DNA of 36,780 nucleotides from a virus. The stretch is from positions 1 through 36,780 of the IMG/VR virus record IMGVR_UViG_3300043446_001906; one strand, written 5' to 3'. The position numbers and the translations under genes were made by a program. Below, one piece after another: positions 19,215 to 36,722 of this stretch. Under the pieces are notes generated by a model. That model did not search any database, was not told the DNA's origin, and saw nothing but the letters and a program-made list of their open reading frames with translations. How positions within the stretch are numbered: position 1 is the first letter of the stretch; each line of letters starts with the position of its first letter.

Positions 19215-19835
19215 TCAGGAATAGGTGTGGGAAGCACGGCCGGTCCAGGTGACGCCAGCCGCTGTGCCTTTGCTGGTGCGGATGCCGGCTGCGTCGTAGA
19301 TGCTGCGGGTGACAGTCCACCTCGCTGCCGATTCCGCTACGCCTTGCGGTGCCTTGCCGACGTAGATCGTTCCAGCAGTGTCGGCATCCACCAGCACCTG
19401 ATACTTCACCGACTCCTGCGGGTAGTTCGTGTCTACGTCAAAGGTTGCCGCGTTCGGCCTTGTCTGCAGGTCCACTCGCATTTGCGCACCAGGCCCCACA
19501 CCACGCGGCACATTGATCAACACCGCATTGCTGCCGGGGTAGGCCCAGATCAGCCGTCCCGCCACCGTCTGCAACGGTGTATCTCCGGCCCAATCCACCA
19601 GATACAGGGTCCAGCGGTCGCCAGCGGTTTCCTGCCGGTACTGCACCACCGGCACTGGTTCAGGATCCCGCACGATCACCACCTCCAGCCCCTCGACCGT
19701 CGTCCCCGGCGGCAGGCTCTCACCCGCAGCCCGCACCGCAATGGCTGGTGTGGTGGCACCGTTTGCCAGCCGGTACGTGCCGAGCACATCCGTTAGCACG
19801 GTTTCCAGTTGAACCCTGATGTCGCGGATGTTCAT
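19215..19835 (-). CDS. Hypothetical tail protein
   Basis: 206 aa, with its ATG overlapping the upstream stop as ATGA and a junction motif copy just before it. N-terminal helix (RDIRVQLETVLTDVLGTYR) then beta-rich segments (GLEVVIVRDPEPVPVVQYRQ, WTLYLVDWAGD). Helix-then-beta layout resembles tail-terminator or minor tail proteins, but no specific family is recognised. Confidence 0.65.
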   Translation of the reverse strand: MNIRDIRVQLETVLTDVLGTYRLANGATTPAIAVRAAGESLPPGTTVEGLEVVIVRDPEPVPVVQYRQETAGDRWTLYLVDWAGDTPLQTVAGRLIWAYPGSNAVLINVPRGVGPGAQMRVDLQTRPNAATFDVDTNYPQESVKYQVLVDADTAGTIYVGKAPQGVAESAARWTVTRSIYDAAGIRTSKGTAAGVTWTGRASHTYS

Positions 19836-21003
19836 GGCGTAGGTTCCCCGGCCAGCAAGAGGTCAGCTTCCAACCATCCAAAGCCATCCCGCTTGGGAAG
19901 CCGTACCTCATGCCGGCATAACGGCCGGTCCAGCTCCCGCACCGTGACCGGTCCACTGATCTGTCCCCGCACGACCACCAGTCCACCTCGTACGTTCCGG
20001 CCTTCCCATCGTGGGGCCAGCACCCACACTGCGTCGTCATCGCTGCGCAGGGCCCGCACAGCCGGCACTGTGGCGCCTGGCTTGCTGGCGGCCAGCACGT
20101 CTGGCCAGATGCTGATCACCAAGGGCGGGCAGCGGTCCTCGTGCCGTAGGGCGAGGGCCACAGCAGCCACCTCAGCGCTGAGCCCATCGGGCTGCTCCTG
20201 CTCGCGGAAGAAGCAGAACTGCTCGGTGGTGAACGCTGCCGACTTCGCCGGGTCGCGGTTCACGTTGGCCATCAGCGCCGTGAGCTGCGCCACCGGCAGC
20301 TCCATGATGCTGGCCTGCTGCCGCTGGATCTGCTGCAGCTCCTCGTATGCCGCCAGCACCACTGCCCTTAGCTCGCGGCCGAAACTGCCTCGCTGGAAAG
20401 CGCCGGGATAGGCATGGCACAGGCGCCAGAAGATCCGCCCCCAGTCGGTCGTCTGCCTCTCCCATTGGCCGGCCGCTGCTTTTTTAGCTCCTCCTCGCTG
20501 GGGCGGTTATCCGGCAGATTCTCGGCTGCCTGCTCGTCCTGGATCAGCTGCCAGATGTCCGTCAGCAGCACTCGCGCCAGCGTGCCTGTGTCGGCCATGG
20601 ACCAGCTAGGGCGGTTCAGCCGGTGGCGGATGATCGCCGTGATGCTGGCCTCCATCGTGCGCTGACCCGCGACCGAGTAGCAGCGAACGACCTGTTCAAT
20701 GCGGCTGGCATGACGCAGGCGGATCTTCTCGGCTGCTTTCTCCAGCGTGGTGCCATTGATGGCCTGCTCCACGATGGCGAACGCTTCAGAGATGGAGATG
20801 CTTTCCTCAGTGGCGATAGCGTCCGCCAGCTGCGCACCTTTGACGAAAGCAGACTGATCGTTGGCCAACAGCTCCGAGATGGTGTCCGACTCGTTGACCG
20901 TCAGGCCCCCCAGTACGGGGATTTCAAGGATGCCGGAGTCAAGCGTTCCGACACGTCGGGGTGGATGCTGCCGTGGTGCGACAACAAAGGGCAGGCTGGA
21001 CAT
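19832..21003 (-). CDS. Predicted -1 frameshift fusion product (tail protein)
   Basis: If ribosomes slip -1 at A AAA AAG (20485-20479), 175 residues of the upstream frame are fused to 215 residues of the downstream frame, giving 390 aa. The downstream frame opens at 20506 (after a TAA) without a good start, and its first residues look like real protein (AAAGQWERQTTDWGRIFW then LCHAYPGAFQRGSFGRELRA), followed by long helices. A GTG at 20362 exists, but starting there would drop this conserved-looking part. The arrangement resembles the G/GT proteins of lambda-like tails, but it lies after the tape measure gene, not before it. Confidence 0.6.
19840..19853 (-). repeat. Late junction motif, variant half-site
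   Basis: Minus-strand reading GGCCGGGGAACCTA, then CGCC and the ATG at 19835. One base shorter in the A-run than other copies but in the same place relative to the start codon. Confidence 0.45.
20368..21003 (-). CDS. Tail-region protein, zero-frame product
   Basis: 211 aa without frameshifting. Helical core: NESDTISELLANDQSAFVKG, TTLEKAAEKIRLRHASRIEQ, RTMEASITAIIRHRLN, LARVLLTDIWQLIQDEQAAE. After the slippery site the frame continues only 36 low-complexity residues (GRGRRPTGGGSSG...), as expected for the short form of a frameshift pair. I do not recognise a named family. Confidence 0.7.
   Translation of the reverse strand: MSSLPFVVAPRQHPPRRVGTLDSGILEIPVLGGLTVNESDTISELLANDQSAFVKGAQLADAIATEESISISEAFAIVEQAINGTTLEKAAEKIRLRHASRIEQVVRCYSVAGQRTMEASITAIIRHRLNRPSWSMADTGTLARVLLTDIWQLIQDEQAAENLPDNRPSEEELKKQRPANGRGRRPTGGGSSGACAMPIPALSSEAVSAAS
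20479..20485 (-). promoter_or_regulatory. Programmed -1 frameshift slippery heptamer
   Basis: Minus-strand A AAA AAG in the zero frame, the same heptamer as in E. coli dnaX. AGGAGG lies four bases upstream on the mRNA, and a GGCCGGCC self-complementary stretch lies just downstream. The next codon after slipping (GCA) opens the long second frame. Confidence 0.65.
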
Positions 21004-21013
21004 GGTGGGTGGG

Positions 21014-21139
21014 TCAGGCGGTTGCCTGTTGCTTGAGCTTTCCCAGTTGCATTTGCTTGAGGTACAGGTAGCGGTTGACTTGGGTTTGCTGCTGAGCGGC
21101 CAGGAGCAGTGCGGCAGGGTTGGGCGGTGGTTTGTTCAT
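21014..21139 (-). CDS. Short hypothetical protein between tail genes
   Basis: 41 aa. It starts with ATG 21139 only three bases after the upstream TAA and ends ten bases before the next ATG, filling an otherwise empty gap. Sequence is Pro-rich then Gln/Leu-rich and helical (PAALLLAAQQQTQVNRYLYL). No family; position and tight spacing are the main evidence. Confidence 0.5.
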   Translation of the reverse strand: MNKPPPNPAALLLAAQQQTQVNRYLYLKQMQLGKLKQQATA

Positions 21140-25857: not shown

Positions 25858-28347
25858 TCAGACGACGGGGAGGGGAATGGGCGTGGCCTGGCCGGGAGCG
25901 CTGACGTAGACGTTCCAGTCCTTGCCGGCTAGCCCTTGGATGGCGCCGGTGTTGAGCTCTAGCGCCTTGCGGTAGTTCTCCTGCGCTGGGCCCAGCTGCT
26001 CCGCGATGCCAGCGAGCCGGAACAGCTTGTCCGGTGTGCTGATGTCAAGGCCGGCGCGGATGGTGCCGTTGTCCACCAGGGGCTGCAGGGATGCCCTTGC
26101 GCGCGTCAGCTGCTCCTGCTGCAGCCGTGGTGTCAGCACGTCGTAATTACCGCGTAGCAGGCCCTGAAGGGTTGCCTTGGCCGTATTGAGGTTGTCAACC
26201 AGCTTCTGCCCGGCCTCTGCATAGGCTTGCCGCACATCGGCATTGGCCTTGTAGACGTTGCGGAATAGGGTCTCAAGCTGCATCCGGTCCTGCTGTCCAG
26301 CCGGCTTGCGTGTCTCGGCCTGCAGGGCCTGCTGAGCCGCTGCTTGCTGGCGTAGTGCAGCGGCGATCTGCTGGCGGAGCTGCAGCTCCAGCTGGGCAGA
26401 TGCTGAGACCTGCCCGCCACGCTCCCCGGCCTGCTGCTCTAGGCGGGTCTGCTCTTGAGTGATGGCCAGCTTGTCGGCAGCGGCTGCATTCTCCAGTTGG
26501 TAGCCCCGGTAGCGGTCCTGCTGGGTGCGGAGTGCATTGGCCTCGGTGGTTGCCTGCTGAACGCGGAGGAGGGCGGTTTCGGCCTCGCCTTTGCGGATCT
26601 GGTTCTGCAGGTCCGTCAGGCGTGCGGTGCTTTGCGTGCCGTTCTTGCCGTCGCCTATGCCTTTGGGCTTGGCCTCCTCGCGGGCAAGGTCAAGCCGCAG
26701 GGCTTCCGTAGCGCGCAGCTTTTCGCTGAGTGCCAGGCGGTTCTCTTGCTTTGCCCGAGCCAGATCATCCAGCGCTGCCAGCTTGCGGGCACCATCAAGG
26801 CGATCCTGCAGGCTGCGCAGCTCTAGGTCAGCTTTGTTCTGCGTCAGGCTGATGTCCAGCTGCTTGTTGCGGATCTCGGCTGCTGCTATCTCAGCTTGCT
26901 TGCGCTTCTGCTCTGCTGCTGCTGCCGCCTGCACAGCGGCTTGCTGATCTGGGTTTCGTTCTCTGAACCTGCGAGCATTGTCAAACAAAGCAGACTGGAA
27001 CCGTGCATATTGCTTGTCATCAAAGCCAAGTTCACCAAACAGGTTTTTCTTTGCGCCGCTGTTGGCAATGGATTGGCTGACAATGTTGCGGACTTGCTGC
27101 GCGGTAAGGTTGTATTCCTTTCGGATGTTGCGCAGCGTGCCGACAAGCTGAGTTGAATCAACCTGATTGAAGCCAAAGTTGTCACGTAAACCGCTGGCTT
27201 CAGTGGCAACGCCAAACCCTTCCAGCGCTTGCGTAAGCAGCTTGACCGATGCAGTCACAGCAGGCAGCAGGTTGGTCCCAAAGCTGACCTGCAACTCTTG
27301 CCAAGCATTGCTGAACTTCTGGAATGTCTGCTGCGCTGTTTCAATTCCGCCAGACCCAGAGGTCAGTTCATTAAGGCCCTTGGTCAGTGCAGGGAAGAAT
27401 TGATCAGCGGTCAGTTTGCCAGATTCCACCAGCTTGATCAGCTCTTGCTGGGTCAGCCCTAGGCCCTTGGCGGTTGCCGTCAGGGCAATCGGCAGCCGTT
27501 CCCCCAGCTGACCGCGCAGTTCCTCCATCTGCACGGTGCCCTTAGATGCCACCTGCTGCAGTGCCAGGAATGAGCCGTTGATTTCATCGTTGCTCAGGCC
27601 CAGCGACTGGCCGGCCTTGGAAACGGCAGCAAACAGGCCCTTCTGCGTCTCAAGCGGCACGTTGGCCGCTGTTGCCGCAGCGGTGAAGCTGCTGAACGAC
27701 TCCGCCAGTGTCTTGAAGTTCAGGCCCAGATCCTTAGCCAAACCACCGGTGAAGCTGAGCGCACCGCCGGCACCCTGCGCACCGAGGGTGTTTTGCAGCT
27801 TGCGGGTGATGGTTTCAAGCTGCGTGGCCTGGTCAATGGACTCCTTGATGAAACCACCAATGGCCGCACCGGCACCAATGCCTAAGCCAATGCCAAGCGC
27901 TCCGAGCAAGCCAGAGCCAAACCCGCTGGCACGTTCCCTAAACGTGTTGCCTAGTGTCTTGTCAACGTTGGCAAGCTCTTTCTCGGTGCGTTGAATTTCG
28001 GCCTGCAGCTTGCGAAATTCTTTGCTGCCGATCTCCACTGAGCTGTAGGACTCTCGCAGGCCTTGCAACTTTGATTGCAGTGCCTGAATGCTGCGGGTTG
28101 CAGCAGGCGGTGCCTGACTATTGAGAGCTTGCTCGACTGATTTCCCAGTCTGCTGCGCCTGCTCCTCAACCTTGCGCAACCCGACATTGATGGCGGTTGT
28201 ATCAACCAAGCGGCCTGGCTTTGAGAATGACGCATCAATCGCCCGCCCTGCTTGCTCTGCCTCTCGTTGCGTTTGCTGCAGCCCTGCAGTCAGTGCTGTG
28301 GCGTCATACGAAATCTTGAGTACGGCTTCCGCAAGCTGTTCCGCCAC
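25858..28347 (-). CDS. Tail tape measure protein
   Basis: 829 aa from GTG 28347, with GAGGAT upstream. Tape-measure-domain signature around residues 175-325: ATQLETITRKLQNTLG, AKDLGLNFKTLAESFSSFTAA, SNDEINGSFLALQQVASKG, VQMEELRGQLGERLPIALTA, LVESGKLTADQFFPALTKG. A Gly-rich hydrophobic stretch (GLLGALGIGLGIGAGAAIGG) precedes it. The second half is long coiled coil rich in Gln, Ala and Arg. It sets tail length and is ejected with DNA; about 830 residues would predict a tail of roughly 120 nm if the usual 1.5 angstrom per residue applies. Confidence 0.93.
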   Translation of the reverse strand: MAEQLAEAVLKISYDATALTAGLQQTQREAEQAGRAIDASFSKPGRLVDTTAINVGLRKVEEQAQQTGKSVEQALNSQAPPAATRSIQALQSKLQGLRESYSSVEIGSKEFRKLQAEIQRTEKELANVDKTLGNTFRERASGFGSGLLGALGIGLGIGAGAAIGGFIKESIDQATQLETITRKLQNTLGAQGAGGALSFTGGLAKDLGLNFKTLAESFSSFTAAATAANVPLETQKGLFAAVSKAGQSLGLSNDEINGSFLALQQVASKGTVQMEELRGQLGERLPIALTATAKGLGLTQQELIKLVESGKLTADQFFPALTKGLNELTSGSGGIETAQQTFQKFSNAWQELQVSFGTNLLPAVTASVKLLTQALEGFGVATEASGLRDNFGFNQVDSTQLVGTLRNIRKEYNLTAQQVRNIVSQSIANSGAKKNLFGELGFDDKQYARFQSALFDNARRFRERNPDQQAAVQAAAAAEQKRKQAEIAAAEIRNKQLDISLTQNKADLELRSLQDRLDGARKLAALDDLARAKQENRLALSEKLRATEALRLDLAREEAKPKGIGDGKNGTQSTARLTDLQNQIRKGEAETALLRVQQATTEANALRTQQDRYRGYQLENAAAADKLAITQEQTRLEQQAGERGGQVSASAQLELQLRQQIAAALRQQAAAQQALQAETRKPAGQQDRMQLETLFRNVYKANADVRQAYAEAGQKLVDNLNTAKATLQGLLRGNYDVLTPRLQQEQLTRARASLQPLVDNGTIRAGLDISTPDKLFRLAGIAEQLGPAQENYRKALELNTGAIQGLAGKDWNVYVSAPGQATPIPLPVV

Positions 28348-28364
28348 TGCTACATCCTCAGTGG

Positions 28365-28387
28365 CCTAGGTTGCCGGGAAACCTAGG
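28365..28387. repeat. Late junction palindrome, divergent site
   Basis: CCTAGGTT-GCCGGGA-AACCTAGG, perfect 8-bp arms. Lies between the tape measure start (28347, minus) and ATG 28390 (plus), ending two bases before that ATG. Its 17-bp core matches the reverse complement of 16142-16158 exactly. Confidence 0.7.
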
Positions 28388-28389
28388 GC

Positions 28390-28782
28390 ATGACTTCAGC
28401 CCTTGCTGCACTGGCCAATGCGACGGCCGTGTTCACCCTGCCGACCGTTGGCACCACCACGGATGCCGTGACAGGAAACGTCCTGCCGGCAGAAGAGACG
28501 GCCACGGTCACGCTATACCTGCGCCAAGGCTCGCCCCAGTCGGCCGGCCTGGAGGGCGTGGATGCGGACACCATCGTCTGCGAGGGGTATGCGGTGGAGC
28601 CGCAGGCCCTTGATGCCCGCATCAGGCCCGGCACCCGTGGCACCGTGACGATGAGCGGCCGGGAGATGACCTGCGAGGTGCTGCAGGAACGGTTCCCCTA
28701 CGGCAACACTGGCCTGCTGGGGACCACTCTGCAGAACATCCTGGGCGATCGGATCCGGCTGGCGGCGTACCTCCATGGCTGA
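28390..28782 (+). CDS. Head-tail connector-like protein, plus strand
   Basis: 130 aa. Beta-rich: TVTLYLRQGSPQSAGLEGVD, IVCEGYAVEPQALDARIRPG, GTVTMSGREMTCEVLQERFP. The size and strand pattern fit head-closure/stopper proteins, and it precedes a tail-completion-like gene, which supports the guess. It is on the opposite strand from other head-tail genes and starts directly at the junction palindrome. Confidence 0.6.
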   Translation: MTSALAALANATAVFTLPTVGTTTDAVTGNVLPAEETATVTLYLRQGSPQSAGLEGVDADTIVCEGYAVEPQALDARIRPGTRGTVTMSGREMTCEVLQERFPYGNTGLLGTTLQNILGDRIRLAAYLHG

Positions 28783-29221
28783 GATCAGCGCCAGCCTCAG
28801 CCTCAAGGGCTGGAATGCCCAACAACTGGCCCTGCGGATCCCCACCATCATCCGCCGCTATGGCGATGTGATGGACAAGCAGCTCAAAGAAGAAATCAAG
28901 ACCGTCCAGTTCCCGTGGCCGCGCGAGACCAAGCGCCGGAATGGCACCACTGTGGGCAGCCCTCGGGACATTGTGGACCTTGGCACCTTCCTGCGGTCCC
29001 AGCGGCGGGACTACCCATCGGCGACCCAGCTGGTATTCACATGGAATGCCAAGAGCAAGAAAGGCGGCTTCATGTATGCCGGCCTCATCCTGACCGGCTA
29101 CACCACCAAGCGGGGCACTGTCGTGCCGGGCCGGAACTGGATCAAGCCGGCCCTTGACAAGCACCCCCTCGATGGCTTCTTCGTCCGTGAGTGGAAGAAG
29201 CTAGCCCGTAATGAGCTCTGA
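28775..29221 (+). CDS. Tail-completion / gp10-like protein, plus strand
   Basis: 148 aa, overlapping the previous gene by 8 bases. Helical start (NAQQLALRIPTIIRRYGDVM), then a basic middle (FPWPRETKRRNG, DLGTFLRSQRR) and VPGRNWIKPALDKHP near the end; the last segment is typical of HK97 gp10-type or neck proteins. It ends on the last base before the converging tail tube gene. Function inferred from pattern and neighbour. Confidence 0.65.
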   Translation: MAEISASLSLKGWNAQQLALRIPTIIRRYGDVMDKQLKEEIKTVQFPWPRETKRRNGTTVGSPRDIVDLGTFLRSQRRDYPSATQLVFTWNAKSKKGGFMYAGLILTGYTTKRGTVVPGRNWIKPALDKHPLDGFFVREWKKLARNEL

Positions 29222-29692
29222 TCAGGAGTCAGTCTCGGCGGTCCAGGTGTAGGCGCCGTAGCCGTTGAGGGTAAAGCTCACCTTCGCCACGTTGCCGGCC
29301 TGAATGTCCTCCTGGAAGTTGGTCACGAAGGCCACGCCAGCGCATTTCTCAGGATTGCCGGTGCTGGTCATCTCAGGAGACTCCCGGTACCACTGCACAG
29401 TCACGCCAGAAGGCGCATCAATGCTGGCCTGACGCAGGGCCTTATATCCGGCATCGCGCAGGTCAAGATTCATGCTCATCGGGATGCTGTAGCTCTGCTG
29501 CGTCACCAGCGAGGTCTTAAACCCGAAGCTGCTGCCGTAGTCCAGCACATCCTGCGTGTCGCTCTGGGCTTGGATGCCAGCGTTGGACAGGTTGAGCACC
29601 TCATCCATCCCGGTGCTGCTGCTCGGCGTGGAGCTGCTGGTAGTACCAGCCTTGACGTAGAACTTGTAGCCAAGGGCGTTGAAGTAACCCAC
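29222..29692 (-). CDS. Major tail (tube) protein
   Basis: 156 aa from GTG 29692 (MGYFNALGYKFYVKAGTT). VLNLSNAGIQAQSDTQDVLDY, YSIPMSMNLDLRDAGYKAL, VQWYRESPEM and VAKVSFTLNGYG are typical tube-protein elements. Start is uncertain: the frame is open upstream to 29761 through the junction motif, but that would overlap the sigma-like gene by 49 bases and no good Shine-Dalgarno site is seen in either place. The conserved-looking part begins near residue 1 used here. Confidence 0.7.
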   Translation of the reverse strand: MGYFNALGYKFYVKAGTTSSSTPSSSTGMDEVLNLSNAGIQAQSDTQDVLDYGSSFGFKTSLVTQQSYSIPMSMNLDLRDAGYKALRQASIDAPSGVTVQWYRESPEMTSTGNPEKCAGVAFVTNFQEDIQAGNVAKVSFTLNGYGAYTWTAETDS

Positions 29693-29712
29693 AACCTGAG
29701 GCGCGATGTGCC

Positions 29713-30261
29713 CTAGGTTTCCGCAGCTTCCAGCACCTCCCACGGCGTCGCCCGTGGGCACACATGCAGATCAAAGCCCATCGTGTCGTGACTCATGCCA
29801 CTGGTGGCCACCAGGCAGTCCCGCAGGTCATCAGCGCTGATGCTCAGCTCTTGGCACACCGCTTCTGCTGCCCAGCCCAGATCCATCAGCTTGCGTGCCC
29901 GCAGGCCCAGCTCTCGCGCGCGATGCGTGGCACCGATCGCCCAGTTGTGGGACCGCAGGTAGTGCAGCACCTCGCCCTGGGCAAACCGCCAGTAGATGGT
30001 TGAAAGCTTCCCTTTTTCCGGGTCCCAGGCACGGCAGGCCTTCAGGAACGCGAAGTCGCAGCACGAGTTGATGTCCTCCCGCGCTAGGCAGTGCCCGTAT
30101 TGCTGGCTTAGCCGGTGGGCGAACTTGCGCACCAGGCCGATGTTCTGCGCATACATCCGCCCGAACCGGCGCCGCTCCTCACGGCTTAGCGGGTCCGCAA
30201 GGTGCGGCTTGGGCTTCGCTGCCTCGTACTCACCAAAGAGAAGGAGTTGCAGCGCTGTCAC
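29713..30261 (-). CDS. Sigma-70 region 2-like protein in the late cluster
   Basis: 182 aa from GTG 30261 with GAGG seven bases upstream. Residues 38-108 match the layout of sigma region 2: AQNIGLVRKFAHRLSQQYG, then EDINSCCDFAFLKACRAWDPEKG, then KLSTIYWRFAQGEVLHYLRSHNW. In bacterial sigma factors this part contacts core polymerase and opens the -10 element. Residues 126-152 (DLGWAAEAVCQELSISADDLRDCL) could be the region-4-like HTH. It sits between tail tube and head-tail adaptor genes, an unusual place. It may direct late transcription of this phage; alternatives are a host-derived relic or a structural protein with chance resemblance, which I consider less likely. Confidence 0.72.
   Translation of the reverse strand: MTALQLLLFGEYEAAKPKPHLADPLSREERRRFGRMYAQNIGLVRKFAHRLSQQYGHCLAREDINSCCDFAFLKACRAWDPEKGKLSTIYWRFAQGEVLHYLRSHNWAIGATHRARELGLRARKLMDLGWAAEAVCQELSISADDLRDCLVATSGMSHDTMGFDLHVCPRATPWEVLEAAET
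29714..29724 (-). repeat. Late junction motif, half-site
   Basis: Minus-strand reading GCGGAAACCTA, continuing GGGC; again it forms the Glu-Thr-stop end of the upstream gene (sigma-like), 20 bases before the tail tube start. Confidence 0.5.
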
Positions 30262-34523: not shown

Positions 34524-34540
34524 AGGTTGCCGGGTAAGCT
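34524..34540. repeat. Late junction palindrome, diverged copy
   Basis: AGGTTGCCGGGTAAGCT matches the 28368 core at 15 of 17 bases. It lies between the scaffold start (34497, minus) and ATG 34563 (plus), the third divergent junction of the late region. Confidence 0.55.
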
Positions 34541-34562
34541 ATGGCTCCCCACCACACAAGCC

Positions 34563-34739
34563 ATGTCCGCTGAAGCCGTCTACGAGGCCATCCGCACCGC
34601 CATTGCCGAGCAGACCGAACAGGACGACGAGCTGTCGATGTTTGAGCTGATCGGTGTGGTGGAACTGATCAAGGCAGAGCTCACCGCCGCCGCAATGGAT
34701 AGCGACGACGATGAGGAGGAGGAGGAAGGCGAGGGCTGA
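34563..34739 (+). CDS. Small acidic plus-strand protein
   Basis: 58 aa after the leader CCCCACCACACAAGCC. Helical (AEAVYEAIRTAIAEQTEQDD, MFELIGVVELIKAELTAA) ending in a purely acidic tail (DSDDDEEEEEGEG). It abuts, tail to tail, the gene for an extremely basic protein. It may neutralise or chaperone a basic partner; that is inference. Confidence 0.6.
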   Translation: MSAEAVYEAIRTAIAEQTEQDDELSMFELIGVVELIKAELTAAAMDSDDDEEEEEGEG

Positions 34740-35252
34740 TCAGGCCTTGCGCTTGCGGGGCTTGCTAACGCCTCGCGACTTCTCCATCCGCTTCACCTTG
34801 GCAGCAGCAGCTTTCACGGTTGCGTCGGTCCTGCCGCCTCGGTACATCTTCAGCTCCCGAACAGCCGAGGTGGCGGCCTTGTATGCCTGCTTCGCCTTGC
34901 TGACGGGAGCCTTGCTCATCTTGGCGGGTTTGGCTGCAGCCTTTGCCGGCTTGCTACCACCGCTGGCCTTGGCTGTGCTGCGCTTGGTGCCGGTGCCACT
35001 GCGGCGGTAGAACTCGCGGGCCTTTTGGGCCACCAGCATTGATTTCGCTTCTTTGCGGCCCACCTGGCCGGCTTTGGTTGCTGCCTTGACGGCCTTAGTG
35101 GCCTTGCGCTCATTGGCCTGAGCACGGCCACGTGCGGTGGTGGTCTTGGGTCCACTGCTCTTACCGCTGCCCTTGCCGCCGCCCCTGCTTCCGCCTCCCC
35201 CGCCGCTACCAGAGAAGCGACCATGAGAGTCGCGCTTGTACGATCTAGCCAT
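34740..35252 (-). CDS. Highly basic histone-H1-like protein
   Basis: 170 aa. N-terminus ARSYKRDSHGRFSGSGGGGG, then almost only Lys, Ala, Arg, Gly, Ser (KATKAVKAATKAGQVGRKEA, KASGGSKPAKAAAKPAKMSK) and a basic end (KSRGVSKPRKRKA). Composition is like bacterial histone-H1 homologues. It lies between portal and scaffold genes, so it may be a virion-internal DNA-binding protein. The RDxxGRFSGSGG opening is common near phage portal genes. Confidence 0.7.
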   Translation of the reverse strand: MARSYKRDSHGRFSGSGGGGGSRGGGKGSGKSSGPKTTTARGRAQANERKATKAVKAATKAGQVGRKEAKSMLVAQKAREFYRRSGTGTKRSTAKASGGSKPAKAAAKPAKMSKAPVSKAKQAYKAATSAVRELKMYRGGRTDATVKAAAAKVKRMEKSRGVSKPRKRKA

Positions 35253-35270
35253 GGCCTGAGGATTGCGGGC

Positions 35271-36722
35271 TTATGCCGTAGGTTGCCCCGGCAGCTGCGC
35301 GACGCTTGCCGCCAGCTGATCCTGCTGCGCCTGCAAGCCGTCAGCTTGTGCCTGCATGGTCTGTTCCAGCTCGGCGTCAATGTCAAAGTCAGAGCCAAGC
35401 CATTCACCCTCAGCCAATCGGGTGAGGAGGGTCTCCTGGCTGATTTCATTGTTGAGGCGCAGCTGCAGCAGCTGTTGCACGTCGCCGGCATCGAGGCGGG
35501 CCGACACGAAGTCCCGGTTTACTGCGGAGCTACCGCCATCGGGCAGGCCCAGGTAGGCAGCGTGAAAGCTGAGGCATTGATCCACCAGGTCCTGCAGGCC
35601 GATCGCGACGGCTTGCAGGGCAGCGTCACCCTGCGACCGGTCAATGGCTTTGGCCTCGGCCGCTTGGTTGGTCATGTTCTGCCCCAGCACGGCAGCCAGG
35701 CCAAGCTCTGCGATCTGGTCTTTGATCCGGTCCAACTGCCTGAACCGGGCGTCGTAGGACGTGCCGGTGGGTTCCGCAAACTCCGCTCGTGCATCGGACG
35801 GGAATGCTGTGGCGCTATTGGGCCCGGCCTGCAGTTCCTCCACCTCGGCAGGCACCCCGAACAAGTTGTATCTCGGGACGGCAGCGACGTGCAGCAGGTT
35901 CCCTTGATCGCTCTCGCACTGGTAGGCCTGGAGATTGAGCCAGGCGACCTCCTCCAGCGGCGGGGTGGACTCCAGAGTGGCGCTGCGGTTGGAGTAGGCG
36001 ACGGCGAAGGGGATGTCTTCCATCGTCGTGGTGCCCTCTGAGATGAGCTCCCAGTCGCGTGACTTGCTGGCCTGCAGGCGGTAGACGCGGAACCGTCCGG
36101 GCTCCAGCACTCGCACCTGCTCGACCATCTCCTCGCCCCATTCGCCATAGGGCACCGTGAGCGTCTCGCGCAGGCGCAGCATGGTCAGCTTCTGCGTGCC
36201 GCCCACTACGTCGGTGCGCCAGCCGAGGATGTCCCGTGGGGCATAGGGCAGCCAGTACGGGCGGCTGAAATCCGTCACCGGGCTGGCATCACCCTCATCA
36301 CCGCGTGGATAGTCCACCAGCACGCCGACGTGCCCGTAGCGGATGCACAGGCGGGCCAGGTGTTGCAGGAACACGTCCAGCCCGCTGCCGGTCAGGTCCA
36401 CGTCATAGAGCTGCTCGACCATCGGATCGGGCACGTTGTCGAGTCTGATCGGCTTGCGGGTCAACATGCCGGCCAGCATCTGTTCCAGGCGCAAGTAATA
36501 CGGCGGGCAGATACTGCGGCGGAGGCGGCTGGCGTAGGCGTCGTCGTCTTCGGCGGGCTCCTGCGGCAGGAAGGTACGGCCTGCCTGCTGCATGCCAAGC
36601 GTGCCAAGGCACAGCTGTTCAATCAATCGCCAGCGTGGTTCCTGCTGGCTCCAACTGATGCCAGGTTCGAAGACCTTGAGGGTGCGGAAGTTAGCGCCAC
36701 CACCAGCGCCGCCCATCGTCAC
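35271..36722 (-). CDS. Portal protein (DUF4055-like), possibly 5'-incomplete
   Basis: 483 aa if started at GTG 36722. DUF4055-type portal features: DAYASRLRRSICPPYYLRLE with LAGMLTRKPIRL, SGLDVFLQHLARLCIRYGHV then GVLVDYPRGD, and the closing helices (FDIDAELEQTMQAQADGLQA). The portal is the dodecameric DNA channel at the head vertex. The frame stays open beyond 36722 to the window edge with protein-like sequence (TLITAGNGDTRYARFQPV), so the true start may lie outside. Terminase genes would be expected next in that direction. Confidence 0.88.
   Translation of the reverse strand: MTMGGAGGGANFRTLKVFEPGISWSQQEPRWRLIEQLCLGTLGMQQAGRTFLPQEPAEDDDAYASRLRRSICPPYYLRLEQMLAGMLTRKPIRLDNVPDPMVEQLYDVDLTGSGLDVFLQHLARLCIRYGHVGVLVDYPRGDEGDASPVTDFSRPYWLPYAPRDILGWRTDVVGGTQKLTMLRLRETLTVPYGEWGEEMVEQVRVLEPGRFRVYRLQASKSRDWELISEGTTTMEDIPFAVAYSNRSATLESTPPLEEVAWLNLQAYQCESDQGNLLHVAAVPRYNLFGVPAEVEELQAGPNSATAFPSDARAEFAEPTGTSYDARFRQLDRIKDQIAELGLAAVLGQNMTNQAAEAKAIDRSQGDAALQAVAIGLQDLVDQCLSFHAAYLGLPDGGSSAVNRDFVSARLDAGDVQQLLQLRLNNEISQETLLTRLAEGEWLGSDFDIDAELEQTMQAQADGLQAQQDQLAASVAQLPGQPTA
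35279..35291 (-). repeat. Late junction motif, variant half-site
   Basis: Minus-strand reading CCGGGGCAACCTA, then CGGCATAA at the end of the portal gene, about 27 bases before the basic-protein start. CGGC takes the place of the usual spacer before a start codon. Confidence 0.45.

Follow-up and report, generated by a model that had tools for sequence, protein, structure and literature searches.

In phage lambda, the tail-assembly chaperones gpG and gpGT come from two reading frames that are linked when ribosomes slip by −1 close to the end of G, at the slippery heptamer G GGA AAG. The heptamer of Escherichia coli dnaX, an unrelated gene, is A AAA AAG, and slipping there relies on an upstream Shine-Dalgarno-like element and a downstream stem-loop. 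Both lambda proteins leave the tail (PMC5009743), and tail genes are usually ordered major tail protein, chaperones, tape measure, minor tail proteins (PMC3706429). The cyanophages P-SS2, S-CBS2 and S-CRES1/2/3 carry homologues of the frame pair analysed here, annotated as two genes (hypothetical, or 'tail assembly protein') with no frameshift noted.

The window, that is, the whole stretch of DNA analysed (36,780 nucleotides; positions 1 to 36,780 of IMG/VR virus record IMGVR_UViG_3300043446_001906), contains portal, major head protein, tail tube, tape measure, endolysin-like C39 and integrase genes. An earlier note on this DNA had proposed that a dnaX-type slippery site joins two tail-region reading frames. 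The features concerned were as follows.

21003-20368, minus strand: gpG-like upstream reading frame (G); zero-frame product of 211 aa, the first 175 aa common to the fusion
20485-20479, minus strand: slippery heptamer A AAA AAG, in zero-frame register, with codons CTA AAA AAG at 20487-20479
19832-20479, minus strand: gpT-like −1 frame extension (T) of 215 aa, accessible only after a slip
20490-20495, minus strand: Shine-Dalgarno-like AGGAGG, four bases upstream of the heptamer in a Glu-rich stretch, probably incidental

The codons of the upstream frame confirmed the register that had been assigned to the heptamer. The frame coordinates likewise agreed with the proposed products of 211 and 390 aa, the longer being the sum of the upstream part (175 aa) and the −1 part (215 aa), and with a −1 frame open from 20506 to its stop at 19832. 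AAAAAAG occurs once in the whole 36.8 kb, both strands counted, and in 200 dinucleotide Markov shuffles neither AAAAAAG nor GGGAAAG ever arose flanked on both sides by 150 or more open codons. Just upstream of G lies a 41-codon ORF (21014-21139, minus strand) that is conserved in position in many relatives, at 93% in one of them (L012) and about 50% in others.

The earlier note had suggested looking for the heptamer in relatives. Scanning IMG/VR for the pair yielded 147 contigs, the best 80 of which were retained for counts, and an in-register slippery heptamer was present at the same place in all 80 (52 G GGA AAG, 28 A AAA AAG, no other form). By tblastn the pair was also matched in P-SS2, S-CRES1/2/3 and S-CBS2. 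We read the junctions of P-SS2, S-CRES1, S-CRES3 and S-CBS2, leaving S-CRES2 out of this separate reading, and again found the heptamer in register at the same place in each, as G GGA AAG in P-SS2 and S-CRES3 and as A AAA AAG in S-CRES1 and S-CBS2. Conservation of the site was therefore complete in the 80 contigs and the four cultured phages inspected. In S-CRES1 and S-CBS2 the zero frame stops with TAA right after the heptamer (A AAA AAG TAA; L003 12001-13184, L005 9251-10413), and slipping and termination of G may compete in these two phages. Searches of bacterial genomes for the pair gave just weak, short matches in planctomycete MAGs, and KBS-S-2A, which has a capsid protein in common with the window, showed a conventional gene order and no tblastn homologue of the pair.

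The two forms of the heptamer have been exchanged repeatedly. A maximum-likelihood tree built from 67 distinct T proteins requires at least seven changes of type, five of which follow inevitably from well supported branches. Three substitutions separate AAA from GGG, and no form in between was seen among the 80 contigs and the four inspected phages. Elsewhere in G, GGA is rare (34 of 679 Gly codons), yet it is the codon used at all 42 distinct G GGA AAG sites. The six consecutive A residues in the window would in principle allow the −1 product to come from transcriptional slippage on the A run rather than from ribosomal slipping, but most relatives have GGGAAAG at the same site, with no long homopolymer, which makes such an origin highly improbable.

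We then compared variation at each codon position in 18 aligned members of the family. Before the heptamer it was 0.25/0.24/0.49, highest at the zero-frame wobble position, and after it 0.29/0.40/0.25, highest at the −1-frame wobble position, so the wobble phase of synonymous variation switches at the heptamer. This switch and the exchange of heptamer types show that both frames are under selection. If a formerly continuous gene had been broken by mutation, or by an error of sequencing or assembly, a two-frame layout in a single contig would be explained, and nothing beyond that layout speaks for it; the recurrence of layout and heptamer in 80 contigs and in cultured phages that were sequenced independently, together with selection on both frames, refutes this reading and leaves it a vanishing probability.

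Conservation of the T protein begins at the first codon after the slip (AAxG...TDW), and the window's own T frame has no start codon for 39 codons beyond it, in line with the proposal that the −1 frame reads as plausible protein from that codon without a good start. In most of the 80 contigs the first possible T-frame start lies at least 33 codons past the slip, so that translation of T there has to come by way of G. That T is instead made separately, by reinitiation or from an internal start, could be argued from the annotations of P-SS2, S-CBS2 and S-CRES, which gave the second gene its own start, and from the 4 of 80 contigs with a T-frame start codon before the slip. We consider it very unlikely, since T is conserved right after the heptamer, ahead of the first start in most contigs, and conservation of the heptamer would then have no reason. 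Together these observations point to a conserved programmed −1 frameshift, whose occurrence and efficiency in vivo are inferred. For programmed ribosomal slipping into the −1 frame after the manner of lambda G/GT, we put the probability at roughly 0.9.

Likeness to dnaX is confined to the heptamer. The window shares A AAA AAG with dnaX, and for the heptamer the dnaX-type label stood; AGGAGG lies four bases upstream (20495-20490), but relatives carry A AAA AAG or G GGA AAG interchangeably, and neither the Shine-Dalgarno-like element nor a stem-loop is conserved. AGGAGG was found in just 25 of 66 distinct loci, and its stimulation of the slip was rejected on that ground. A spacing of four bases is also short for a −1 stimulator. 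Stimulators, whether Shine-Dalgarno-like or structural, accompany many programmed −1 sites, though some sites lack them. Downstream, the stem-loop search returned a z-score of +1.2 for the window, and no helix with convincing covariation emerged. The base after the heptamer is C in 66 of 66 loci and the dinucleotide CC in 51 of 66; a 3' CC is the most shift-prone dinucleotide reported in E. coli (PMC5009743). This C or CC may be incidental, as the same bases also form part of an Ala codon conserved in T.

The T part matched known families. Pfam Phage_tail_T (lambda gpT) was matched by 12 of 16 T members (best E 1.6e-5) and phrog_34388 by 16 of 16; the window's own T scored 19.0 bits against Phage_tail_T (E 0.002), below the curated cut-off of 25.9 bits. 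T is longer than one Phage_tail_T domain (73 profile positions), and its predicted model is partly confident, including a confident C-terminal beta-rich part. The presence of a Phage_tail_T-like domain in the −1 part, with conservation of the heptamer, supports a functional slip joining two tail-region frames, as had been proposed. G is kept in the lineage (57-97% identity to the window) and is 22-29% identical in P-SS2, S-CBS2 and S-CRES. Sequence searches with G gave no family match, and outside the family of G itself they found no similarity to known tail chaperones. Its predicted structure, a beta hairpin plus helices (pLDDT 78), gave no trustworthy PDB match and no convincing known chaperone in a fold search; matches of middling Z to ion-channel helices were dismissed as a common helical arrangement, and the best BFVD match of the model was F4YCJ6.

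The locus resembles lambda gpG/gpGT in having a −1 slip late in G that links its two frames, in the G GGA AAG carried by many relatives and in the Phage_tail_T match of the −1 part. It differs in the heptamer of the window itself, in a G without detectable similarity, in a T part of 215 aa and in its place after the tape measure and tail-tip genes. We conclude that the pair is most likely a tail-assembly chaperone pair of the gpG/gpGT type, with the chaperone role assigned by analogy. By this account, most ribosomes would make the 211-residue G-like protein, and a minority would slip from CTA AAA AAG into the −1 frame at A AAA AAG to make the 390-residue G-T fusion. As in lambda, the tape measure protein would be coated by G, and the fusion would use its T part to bring in the major tail protein, which would then polymerise as a tube around the coated tape measure; G and G-T would both depart after assembly. 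Several points count against this account: the window T falls under the Pfam cut-off, G has no chaperone match, the position is atypical and no stimulatory structure is conserved.

Published virion data from a relative bear on this role. Mass spectrometry of P-SS2 virions detected ORFs 061-063 and 066 onward, and the G and T homologues (34537-35211 and 35232-35765) are missing from the published virion protein table (PMC2784084). In S-CBS2, the genes beside the pair are entered as structural proteins and the pair itself as hypothetical. Both observations agree with chaperones that leave the tail, absence from a proteome being weak evidence by itself. The frameshift might be programmed and the fusion still be a minor tail or tail-tip component rather than a chaperone, as could be suggested by the place of the pair after the tape measure among tail genes, the lack of recognisable chaperone similarity in G, and a T that exceeds a single Phage_tail_T domain and ends in a confident beta-rich part. 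We regard a tail component as unlikely, because T contains a Phage_tail_T-like domain, the S-CBS2 and S-CRES pair lies before the tail tube gene and not among tail-tip genes, and the P-SS2 homologues are absent from virions in which their neighbours were detected.

For the chaperone reading, the surrounding gene order is the unusual part. The neighbouring features were as follows.

29222-29761, minus strand: major tail (tube) protein gene (phrog_38654 E 7e-14, phrog_1407 E 7e-11)
28390-28782 and 28775-29221, plus strand: two overlapping, inverted neck/head-completion-like genes, called by position and sequence reading
25858-28347, minus strand: tape measure protein gene (Pfam TMP_3 E 1.7e-26 and several PHROG tape measure families)
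19215-19835, minus strand: gene directly after T (g19215), homologous to S-CBS2 gp018 (tblastn 31%, E 3e-8)

The identified late structural genes lie on the minus strand, bar the two between tube and tape measure, for which no functional family match was found. The usual chaperone place, between the major tail protein and tape measure genes, is not where the window pair sits. As the earlier note had stated, the pair comes after the tape measure gene, which lies upstream of it on the minus strand; in the window it follows the tape measure gene, g25109, g22440 and g22012, and across the 80 contigs it comes after whichever of these was detected. A second chaperone pair in the usual place was excluded, the interval 28348-29221 being occupied by the two plus-strand genes, and wherever these neck-like genes were detected in a contig of the lineage, they stood between tube and tape measure in inverted orientation. 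With the T-like domain and this position, the suggestion of a displaced tail assembly chaperone appears essentially right.

In the cultured cyanophages (22-29% identity to the window), the pair lies instead before the tail tube and tape measure genes. In S-CBS2 and S-CRES it does so together with the g19215 homologue, which comes after the pair as in the window; in P-SS2 it lies about 18 kb before the tape measure. These differing positions in the window lineage, S-CBS2/S-CRES and P-SS2 indicate a loosely placed family. The pair would have moved, in this uncultured lineage, to after the tape measure and tail-tip genes. The chances are about even that the lineage (phages, probably of cyanobacteria) broke the tube-chaperone-tape measure order in full, with the pair at the far end of the tail operon beside a possible tail terminator gene and the neck genes flipped into the vacated place; a link between displacement of the pair and inversion of the neck genes is a guess. 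The recoding is of a known kind and the displacement is the novel part. In the open-access papers searched, no pair of this sort was described downstream of a tape measure gene.

If this account is true, chaperone dosage would depend on late operon position as well as on frameshifting. The gpG/gpGT frameshift would have been kept though its genes left their usual place, which argues that the recoding itself, not synteny, is held by selection. The heptamer combined with phrog_34388 could serve as a marker for naming chaperones in uncultured phages where position-based annotation fails, and the result bears on the P-SS2, S-CBS2 and S-CRES records, in which each half of the pair was entered as a gene of its own. 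That A AAA AAG and G GGA AAG have replaced each other several times at a single site also offers a natural comparison of both heptamers.

The gene after the pair was itself well conserved in place, a g19215 homologue adjoining the pair in 78 of the 80 contigs. A PHROG search with g19215 gave nothing useful, and by position it is possibly tail-terminator-like. Its N-terminal ~125 aa are conserved, and the C-terminal part varies among relatives, in ORFs of 132 to 1280 aa, suggesting different tails fused to one domain. At the other end of the tail genes, a gene for a sigma-70 region 2-like protein (29713-30261, minus strand) lies within the structural operon, between the head-tail adaptor and tail tube genes, and overlaps the start of the tube ORF.
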